Below, piece by piece: positions 59,679-62,419 of a stretch of DNA of 64,000 nt. Source of the DNA: Alphaproteobacteria bacterium (GTDB lineage: Bacteria > Pseudomonadota > Alphaproteobacteria > SMXS01); assembly GCA_028284945.1 (NCBI GenBank), contig JANQQJ010000036.1, positions 1 to 64,000 on the forward strand, given 5' to 3'. The notes beneath the pieces are model-generated. The model did not search any database, was not told where the DNA came from, and saw only the letters and a list, made by a program, of their open reading frames with translations. The first letter of the stretch is position 1, and each line of letters opens with the position of its first letter. A program made the translations under genes and the position numbers.

Positions 59679-60786
59679 CGCCGTCCTCCAGAACGATGGG
59701 GACCATGCCGGTTTCCTGTACGGCGATCGGTACGCCGTCTTTCAGATCAGGCAGGTTGGGGCCGACCAGCGCCAGCTCACCCTCGGCAAGACCGTCCAGC
59801 ACCTCAACCCGTTCCGCATCAATGTCGTGCACCTGAACCGTGCGCCGCTTTGCCGCATCGCCATTGGGGACAAAGACATAGTTATCACCAGCAATGCCCT
59901 GGACGGCGCGACGGGCGACCACCTTGGTGCGTCGTGGCTCAGGATAAAGCGTCACCTTAGCAAACAGACCGGGTTTGATCGCCAGGTCCGGATTGTCCAG
60001 CCGCAACCTGATCTGGACGCTGCGGGTACGCGCGTCGATCTTGTCATTAATCACATCGAGGCTGGCTTCAACAGGCTCCGCCAGGCCGTCAAAGTCAATC
60101 GTGGCGCGCCCGCCGGGTTCGATCTTTGCAAGATGCGATGCAGGTACCTGGGCGACGACCTCGACCACATCCAATTTGACGATTTCCAGAATTGGTAAGC
60201 CGCCGGAGGCGACCTGGATCATCGTACCTTCATCGACAAAACGGGTGGTGATAATGCCGTCATAGGGCGCCCGGACGATCGTATCCGCCAGATCTTGCCG
60301 GGCCCGGTCCAGATTGGCCTGGGAGATGCCCAGCTTGGCGCGGGCCATGTCGTGCTGAGCAATAATGGCGTCCATCCGCCCCTGTGACACAACGCCCTTT
60401 TGGCGAAGCTGGGTTGCCCGGTCGAGTTCTCGCTTGGCCTGCTGCATCTCTGCCTGGGCCAGGATAAGGCCCTGTTCGATTTCAGTGACCCGGTTGCTGT
60501 AATCGACCTGCCGGGTCCGGAACAGCCTGTCGCCTGCGGTGACATTGTCGCCGACCTCGACATAGATCTGATCGATGATGCCGTTAACCCGGGCCTTGAT
60601 CTGTGTCGTCTTGTCGGCCAGCACCTCGCCCGTCGCCAGAATTTCGTCGATGACATTTTCCTGGCGGACGGCCGTCGTGAAAATCGGCACCGACTCGATA
60701 GTGGTTTCAGCAGGGGCGGCGGCTTCTTCAGCGCTACAGGCGCCCAGCAGGACGAGTGCCGCAATGACTACAGGTGGGCGCATCAT
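59665..60786 (-). CDS. RND periplasmic adaptor lipoprotein (2)
   Basis: This 373-residue adaptor has a lipoprotein signal MMRPPVVIAALVLLGACSAE (Cys17), which anchors it to the inner membrane. Lipoyl halves are TQIKARVNGIIDQIYVEVGD and DTIVRAPYDGIITTRFVDEG, with a helical hairpin between. It overlaps the RND subunit by 14 bases and the upstream TetR gene by four, making a tight three-gene operon tetR-adaptor-pump. Confidence 0.94.
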   Translation of the reverse strand: MMRPPVVIAALVLLGACSAEEAAAPAETTIESVPIFTTAVRQENVIDEILATGEVLADKTTQIKARVNGIIDQIYVEVGDNVTAGDRLFRTRQVDYSNRVTEIEQGLILAQAEMQQAKRELDRATQLRQKGVVSQGRMDAIIAQHDMARAKLGISQANLDRARQDLADTIVRAPYDGIITTRFVDEGTMIQVASGGLPILEIVKLDVVEVVAQVPASHLAKIEPGGRATIDFDGLAEPVEASLDVINDKIDARTRSVQIRLRLDNPDLAIKPGLFAKVTLYPEPRRTKVVARRAVQGIAGDNYVFVPNGDAAKRRTVQVHDIDAERVEVLDGLAEGELALVGPNLPDLKDGVPIAVQETGMVPIVLEDGDASR

Positions 60787-61388
60787 GCGGCTCCTCCGTG
60801 CAGGTTAGCGAGCAGAAGCTCGGTAAACTGGTTGCCGACAATGTCCGGATCCATCGGCAGGTCCGGGTCGAGCTGCCGCAGGACGGGTTGAAGCAAGAAG
60901 TAGCCGGTGATCAAGGCGTTGATATGGGCCGTCACAGAGCGCGCATCGCCATTCGGGGAAACTTCGCCAAACAACTGGACCATCCGGCTATACGGCGCGT
61001 TGAACAGTGATTTCGTCAGACGCTCTAACCGCGCCCGGTCACCGTCCATCAGTTCGCGATGCAGCAATTTGCGAGAGACATTGTCGTCCGCACTCGTTCG
61101 TGCGAGCGCAATCACTGTCGCCTTTAGTCGTTCTTCAGCTGTACCGGTGGCATCCAGTCCTTTCTCGATGTCCTCAACGCGTTCGGCAAAACCGCGTTCG
61201 AGCGCCGCAAAATACAATTCTTCCTTGTCCGCGAAGTGGTTGTACAGGCTGGCTGCCTTGATTCCGACAGCGTCGGCAATGTCCCGCATAGAGACACCGG
61301 CGAAGCCGTGGTCTGCAAAAAGCGTTGCAGCACACGCTGAAATTCTGTCGCGTGTGGGCGCGTCAGCGGCAAGTTCCAGTGATGACAT
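60783..61388 (-). CDS. TetR-family transcriptional regulator (3)
   Basis: This 201-residue regulator has the HTH segment ATLFADHGFAGVSMRDIADA then VGIKAASLYNHFADKEELYF, and a TetR C-terminal domain. It is the first gene of the second RND operon, so it should autoregulate through the palindrome at 61400, 12 bases upstream of its ATG. Confidence 0.94.
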   Translation of the reverse strand: MSSLELAADAPTRDRISACAATLFADHGFAGVSMRDIADAVGIKAASLYNHFADKEELYFAALERGFAERVEDIEKGLDATGTAEERLKATVIALARTSADDNVSRKLLHRELMDGDRARLERLTKSLFNAPYSRMVQLFGEVSPNGDARSVTAHINALITGYFLLQPVLRQLDPDLPMDPDIVGNQFTELLLANLHGGAA

Positions 61389-61413: not shown

Positions 61414-61575
61414 CTGAACATTAGCCAAGGTTGTCGCAGCGATCAAGCGCCTTTCGATGGGTGCTTAGCCGGGTTGTAACAATTCTTAACACTACACGGC
61501 CTGATTTCACCGTTCTTAACGTGTGGATCACACCCCCCACGCGCATAGTACGTCTCGACAGCACGCGAGTGTGAG

Positions 61576-61671
61576 TCGACCACGAAACGGCAAACCGTCG
61601 GAAACGGCGGGACGCAAAGCCACCGGCCCACCCCCGGAACATCCGGGCGGGTAGCGGGGTTACCGAAAGGA
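61576..61671 (+). promoter_or_regulatory. c-di-GMP-I (GEMM) riboswitch
   Basis: The conserved GEMM-I core is present in order: GGCAAACC (61589-61596); stem CCGTCG/CGGCGG closed by a GAAA tetraloop (61595-61610); GGGACGCAAAGCC (61609-61621) followed by ACCGG; a GC-rich second stem with CCCGG/CCGGG (61632-61646); then GGTAGCGGGGTTACCG (61650-61665). The guanines before CAAACC that contact the ligand in the Vibrio Vc2 structure are kept, so c-di-GMP rather than cGAMP is expected. The ribosome site AAAGGA (61666-61671) directly follows the last conserved block, 7 bases before the ATG of the LapG-like gene. Regulation of translation start is therefore likely. Confidence 0.92.
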
Positions 61672-61678
61672 CCAACAA

Positions 61679-62419
61679 ATGGAAGCCCTGGGCTCCGACC
61701 GCAGTTTGACAACTGCACCGAAACGTAAATTTTCGCCAACAGCGCTATATTTTCTTCTTCCCTTCGCTGTCGTGTTTTTCGCCACGCTGCTTTTCTGGAC
61801 ACCGGCGGAGGGCAAAGGCCTTGCTGCAATGGACAACGGCCCTGCACTTACAGAAGATTTCGGCGTCCGCGAGGCCATGACGCTGGACATGGACCGCCTG
61901 AAAAAGTGGACAAATGCTCTGGAGCGGCACGAAGCGGCCTTGAATGACGAGAGCGAGTGCTACAACTCAACTGCCGCATTTTGTTTCAAGACCTATTGGA
62001 CGGAATTGACAACAGAGCTGGCCACGATGGACCGCGCGGATCAGCTGGTCCGCATCAACAACGAAGTTAATTCCTGGGCCTATAGCACTGACCGTGCTGC
62101 CTGGGGCCTTTCGGACTATTGGGCCACGCCGGAAGAAATGTTCAACAAAGGGTCTGGCGATTGCGAAGACGTCGCGATCTTCAAATATCTTCTACTGCGC
62201 GCTGCTGGTGTTGCCGCTGACGACATGACCTTGATGGTAACGGCCACAGGCACACACGCGCATATGGTGTTGATCGTGGCACGAGAAGATGGTGCCGTCG
62301 TGTTGGATAACCTGACGAATGCGATCATGTTGGCGTCAGATAGCAACCGCACTGATGTACCGCTCTATTCGCTCAGCGAAGCTGGCTGGCAGATGCTGGC
62401 CGTCAACAAAAAAGGCTAA
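61679..62419 (+). CDS. LapG-like transglutaminase-type cysteine protease (BTLCP)
   Basis: This 246-residue protein belongs to the bacterial transglutaminase-like cysteine proteinases (peptidase family C93). One membrane segment (ALYFLLPFAVVFFATLLFW, residues 22-40) anchors or exports it, so the catalytic part is periplasmic. The triad is Cys162 (GSGDCEDVAIFKYLLLRAAG), His195 (GTHAHMV) and Asp210 (VVLDNL); the His-to-Asp distance equals that of Pseudomonas LapG. The segment DYWATPEEM before Cys is a LapG hallmark. LapG cuts the surface adhesin LapA to release biofilm cells unless held by c-di-GMP-bound LapD. The c-di-GMP riboswitch in its leader ties it to the same signal. No lapD or lapA gene is in the window. 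Confidence 0.92.
   Translation: MEALGSDRSLTTAPKRKFSPTALYFLLPFAVVFFATLLFWTPAEGKGLAAMDNGPALTEDFGVREAMTLDMDRLKKWTNALERHEAALNDESECYNSTAAFCFKTYWTELTTELATMDRADQLVRINNEVNSWAYSTDRAAWGLSDYWATPEEMFNKGSGDCEDVAIFKYLLLRAAGVAADDMTLMVTATGTHAHMVLIVAREDGAVVLDNLTNAIMLASDSNRTDVPLYSLSEAGWQMLAVNKKG

Follow-up and report, generated by a model that had tools for sequence, protein, structure and literature searches.

The textbook example of inside-out signalling by cyclic di-GMP (c-di-GMP) through a protein receptor is Lap-type proteolysis: LapD sequesters the protease LapG, and high c-di-GMP results in less proteolysis. Here we describe a locus at which an RNA leader may take the place of that receptor. It lies in a stretch of 64,000 nucleotides, called the window in the following (positions 1 to 64,000 of contig JANQQJ010000036.1, GenBank assembly GCA_028284945.1), from an alphaproteobacterium of the lineage SMXS01, and it consists of a class-I c-di-GMP riboswitch directly upstream of a gene for a LapG-like cysteine protease of the family Peptidase C93 (BTLCP). 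It is probable, in our judgement, that the two form a LapD-free translational OFF switch, by which the periplasmic protease would be made only at low c-di-GMP.

The logic of such a circuit is not new, because a precedent exists in Clostridioides difficile, in which a class-I c-di-GMP riboswitch controls PPEP-1, a protease by which two adhesins are set free when c-di-GMP is low (PMC11477304, PMC6366702). The ppep-1 gene (zmp1, CD2830) resembles the window gene in having a riboswitch of this class upstream and in the control of an exported protease. However, PPEP-1 is an unrelated zinc metalloprotease of a Gram-positive host, whereas the window encodes a C93 cysteine protease, and the known adhesin substrates of PPEP-1 are under the inverse control of a class-II riboswitch. 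In addition, the window leader is compact, overlaps the Shine-Dalgarno motif and, as we infer, acts on translation. The novelty lies in the enzyme family and lineage involved and in a leader that is compact and, by inference, translational. A first-pass annotation of the window, made from the sequence without database searches, knew of no described case of the pairing; in the literature searched, with subscription papers mostly outside its coverage, no c-di-GMP riboswitch paired with a C93/LapG-type protease was described either, so that this view can be kept for the C93 family but not for the circuit logic.

Two further systems are relevant. HvyA of Caulobacter is a periplasmic C93/BTLCP protein that blocks capsulation in G1 cells, needs its C-H-D triad and is controlled mainly by its abundance (PMC4241560). 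Like the protease described here, HvyA is a LapD-free periplasmic C93 protein for which regulation of abundance is the relevant mode; in contrast, it is under cell-cycle control, is encoded in a capsule-export locus, and no riboswitch is reported for it in the available part of that source (PMC4241560). The Vibrio riboswitch Vc2 (GEMM-I) has a class-I aptamer and is a translational OFF switch acting through the closing helix P1 (PMC9262584), the difference being that in the window leader the Shine-Dalgarno motif overlaps the P1 strand itself.

The identity of the aptamer is well defined. A whole-genome search with RF01051 matched window positions 61579-61667 with 69.2 bits (E 2.3e-13; gathering cut-off 35 bits), bearing out the GEMM-I blocks that the first-pass annotation had recognized in front of the protease gene. 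A cmscan of the 64-kb window returned a sole RNA element, at 61580-61668 on the plus strand, which belongs to the class-I c-di-GMP (GEMM-I) clan, and our own model R1, which had the window copy among its training sequences, scored it with 92.3 bits. The ligand-contact bases (equivalents of G20, A47 and C92, with the Vc2 numbering transferred by hand) are canonical, and the blocks GGCAAACC, GACGCAAAGCC and UUACCGA around them are conserved in the alignment. At the level of sequence, the element is thus confirmed as a canonical class-I c-di-GMP aptamer, and its ligand is presumably c-di-GMP. It should be noted that a GEMM-I copy elsewhere in the class (L040:1499-1586) has GACAAACC instead of GGCAAACC, and is possibly of the G20A type tied to a preference for cGAMP.

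The leader places this aptamer on the ribosome-binding site. The Shine-Dalgarno motif AAAGGA (61666-61671, plus strand) overlaps the 3' end of the aptamer, which reads CCGAAAGGACC and includes the motif, and is followed by the ATG after 7 nt; 10 bases separate the end of the aptamer from the ATG, not 8 as first counted. The same CCGAAAGGACC forms the 3' arm of P1 (61663-61673), and the 5' arm (61574-61584) contains CC and CG, or GUC, which are able to pair with the Shine-Dalgarno strand. A Shine-Dalgarno motif within or adjoining the 3' arm of P1, with the start codon 6-12 nt later, was found at nine of ten sites of the order by script and at all ten by eye, at 28 of the 46 other sites of the class, and at none of the 28 sites of a phylum survey that lie outside the class. 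The 5' arm at such sites is typically UCCUCG, an anti-Shine-Dalgarno sequence. When the P1 arms were pooled over clades in a permutation test, their own pairing was matched or beaten by only 9 of 5000 shuffles.

The downstream open reading frame (61679-62419, plus strand, 246 amino acids) matches Peptidase_C93 (PF06035) with 67.7 bits (cut-off 27, E 1.3e-18). Its best relatives in the PDB by sequence are the LapG proteins of Legionella and Pseudomonas (4fgo, E 2.8e-17), and the same LapG structures are the best fold matches of an AlphaFold model (pLDDT 83). The LapG-type triad claimed at the outset holds on alignment to these two structures: C162, H195 and D210 (codons at 62162, 62261 and 62306), together with the Asp/Glu residues flanking the cysteine in GDCED, are invariant across 34 C93 sequences, and the DYWATPEE hallmark is likewise present. 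The N-terminus has a hydrophobic stretch at about residues 21-40 and relatives carry an AxA-type signal sequence; therefore, the protease is probably exported to the periplasm.

The protease is homologous to LapG of the Pseudomonas LapG-LapD-LapA system, with the same triad, the same second messenger and the same expected direction. Nevertheless, identity with LapG proper is not supported. The score with the NCBIfam LapG equivalog NF045674 is 86.7 bits, below the cut-off of 320 that the Pseudomonas LapG control passes with 376.9 bits, and a single clade (support 100/99) unites the LapG proteins whose genes adjoin one for LapD and leaves the window protease outside. Its own clade adjoins this LapD-linked clade, albeit weakly (95/78). 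The description as LapG-like is therefore justified with regard to the C93 family and the best PDB match, but naming the protein LapG itself is not. In Pseudomonas, LapD leashes LapG, whereas here no match to PF16448 (LapD_MoxY_N) was found in the genome, which is 99.1% complete, control genomes having given sub-threshold matches only; the genome encodes just one EAL protein, a soluble regulator of the REC-EAL type. Within the reach of these searches, the protease is LapD-free, as the first-pass annotation had considered, and LapD-free loci are the rule among the alphaproteobacterial C93 loci examined. The genome also yielded no LapA retention module (NF033682, with control matches sub-threshold only), no RTX repeats and no LapB-type exporter of a type I secretion system above cut-off; these negatives rest on profile searches, no blind search for giant adhesins having been made, and in the search for two-partner secretion adhesins the control sequences were silent as well. 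No adhesin or type I secretion gene was recognized beside the protease gene in the genomes examined. Since no LapD, LapA module or RTX repeats were found, the release of an adhesin, which had been proposed for the locus, is unproven.

The ten sampled genomes of the order contain 11 riboswitch sites and 13 C93 matches, and 8 of the 11 sites directly precede a C93 gene (7 genomes of 3 genera: the window copy, two in G003 and one each in G001, G004, G005, G007 and G009). Outside the order, no C93 gene was found near any of about 112 riboswitch sites in the flanks fetched (46 from the class survey and about 66 from the phylum survey; three class sites came without flanks and some flanks were short). 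The reverse survey, which had been suggested with the first-pass annotation, covered the 80 nearest C93 loci in named genomes. The only positive, L071, is the G005 contig of this order, and none of the other 79 has a riboswitch. The record of L071 is titled Candidatus Kuenenia stuttgartiensis but carries a contig of this order (G005:C27), and is apparently mis-titled. Thus, the pairing of riboswitch and C93 gene is established for this order, and none of the sites sampled elsewhere showed it. The AU test does not reject a single origin (p-AU 0.113); the G009 protease is placed elsewhere in the tree, on a long branch. The neighbours of the paired loci differ: they are resistance-nodulation-division (RND) efflux genes in the window, include a PAS hybrid kinase in genus g2, and are different again in genus g3.

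According to the mechanism that we favour, the C93 cysteine protease, a periplasmic enzyme, would be translated from a monocistronic transcript with the canonical aptamer as its 5' leader and with the Shine-Dalgarno motif carried or abutted by the 3' strand of P1. At high c-di-GMP, the bound aptamer would steady P1, the ribosome-binding site would be hidden and translation blocked; at low c-di-GMP, the protease would be synthesized and exported, and might cut an envelope or surface protein and so favour the free-living state. Regulation of the protease at the RNA level is a prediction, and the identity of the target is likewise proposed. The OFF direction is suggested by the overlap of Shine-Dalgarno and P1, by the precedent of Vc2, and by the flagellin-like genes of the class, the leaders of which have a similar geometry, since high c-di-GMP is expected to silence motility genes.

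Several observations weigh against this mechanism. P1 of the window copy is weak (-3.4 kcal/mol), a covariation test within the class alone gave no signal for P1 owing to the conservation of both arms, thermodynamic folding of the leader failed to tell a closed, bound state from an open, free one, and a promoter search gave no match. In genus g3, moreover, the C93 gene behind an intact riboswitch is a C-terminal scrap in G008 (L019/L162), and in G009 it carries a frame break close to the signal peptide (L023/L161); the pairing may therefore not be essential in that genus, with assembly error as another possible source of the broken genes.

The direction and the ligand could also be read differently. 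If bound c-di-GMP freed the Shine-Dalgarno motif, synthesis of the protease would rise with the messenger and negative feedback would limit adhesion; when the ensemble of the window leader is modelled without ligand, the G bases of the motif are partly paired, and pairing of GGGGUU with GACC is possible in principle. Such an ON switch is nevertheless unlikely in view of the direct overlap of P1 and Shine-Dalgarno, of Vc2 (PMC9262584) and of the similar geometry at the flagellin-like genes. Far more improbable still is that the aptamer is a GGC variant that senses something other than c-di-GMP. The clan competition of Rfam in cmscan does rank the GGC family RF03167 best at 61580-61668, but its 61 bits exceed the gathering cut-off of 59 by just 2 bits, compared with 69 against 35 bits for RF01051. 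At the diagnostic base, the GGC consensus reads ACGCGAAGCC and the window ACGCAAAGCC: the first A of CGCAAAGC is kept as A, whereas it is G in the RF03167 consensus. The aptamer is therefore regarded as canonical, and the GGC identity was dropped because of the marginal score and the wrong diagnostic base.

With regard to the role of the protease, two alternatives to an unspecified surface target have to be weighed. The enzyme might follow true Lap logic under RNA control, cutting an unrecognized surface adhesin so that falling c-di-GMP frees cells from the biofilm. LapG is the best PDB match by sequence and by fold, the clade lies, weakly, beside the LapD-linked clade, the triad and GDCED are conserved, and LapG of Pseudomonas aeruginosa cleaves CdrA, an adhesin other than LapA (PMC4694147). 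We nevertheless find this role rather unlikely, given a genome in which no LapA retention module, RTX repeats or LapB-type exporter above cut-off was detected and loci beside which no adhesin gene was recognized. Alternatively, the protease might act like HvyA and restrain a capsule or another surface polysaccharide, its abundance and not its activity being regulated, with c-di-GMP in place of the Caulobacter cell-cycle control. We hold this somewhat less doubtful, if still short of an even chance: HvyA is an alphaproteobacterial periplasmic C93 protein that is controlled by abundance and needs its C-H-D triad (PMC4241560), and C93 genes without LapD prevail at the alphaproteobacterial loci examined, but HvyA sits in a capsule-export locus, which the window gene does not, and HvyA itself has no place in our C93 tree. 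As a functional model, HvyA is equally good as LapG; its control by abundance fits a control by synthesis, and cautions against the presumption that the target is an adhesin.

The protease gene stands alone, between a divergent TetR-family regulator upstream (60783-61388, minus strand; Pfam TetR_N), which bounds the intergenic region of the leader, and a convergent hydantoinase-like gene downstream; RND efflux, TetR and hydantoinase-type genes make up its neighbourhood, with no capsule-export locus. In genus g2, a multi-PAS hybrid histidine kinase of 1400 amino acids is encoded, as a conserved neighbour, directly upstream of the riboswitch-C93 unit (L157:5550-9779, L155:11460-15674), and the sole EAL gene of the window genome also has a neighbour encoding a PAS-domain protein (L151). 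The second GEMM-I riboswitch of this genome (G000:C35:282115-282203; L001:1501-1589, L153) is followed by an open reading frame of 48 amino acids and then by a gene for an AAA ATPase of 556 amino acids, the N-terminus of which matches the c-di-GMP-binding domain of the MshE type (NF053729, 57.6 bits, cut-off 38); an RNA and a protein sensor of c-di-GMP may act on the same gene. Elsewhere in the class, riboswitches lie in front of flagellin-like (L054, L065, L066), ParA-like (L036, L053, L057, L059, L062) and PilZ-like (L056) genes, all named by eye from the sequence, and often show the same Shine-Dalgarno overlap.

We tentatively propose, as an idea that goes further than the OFF switch and is correspondingly less certain, that within this order RNA has replaced LapD, the Shine-Dalgarno-masking riboswitch being the sole c-di-GMP control of a LapG-type protease of surface proteins. 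If this is true, an RNA leader does the job of LapD in a LapD-free lineage, and the same decision is made with the same enzyme family through a different kind of sensor, in parallel to PPEP-1 of C. difficile. The locus would then offer a handle on the many LapD-free C93/BTLCP proteases, the regulation and substrates of which are largely uncharted.
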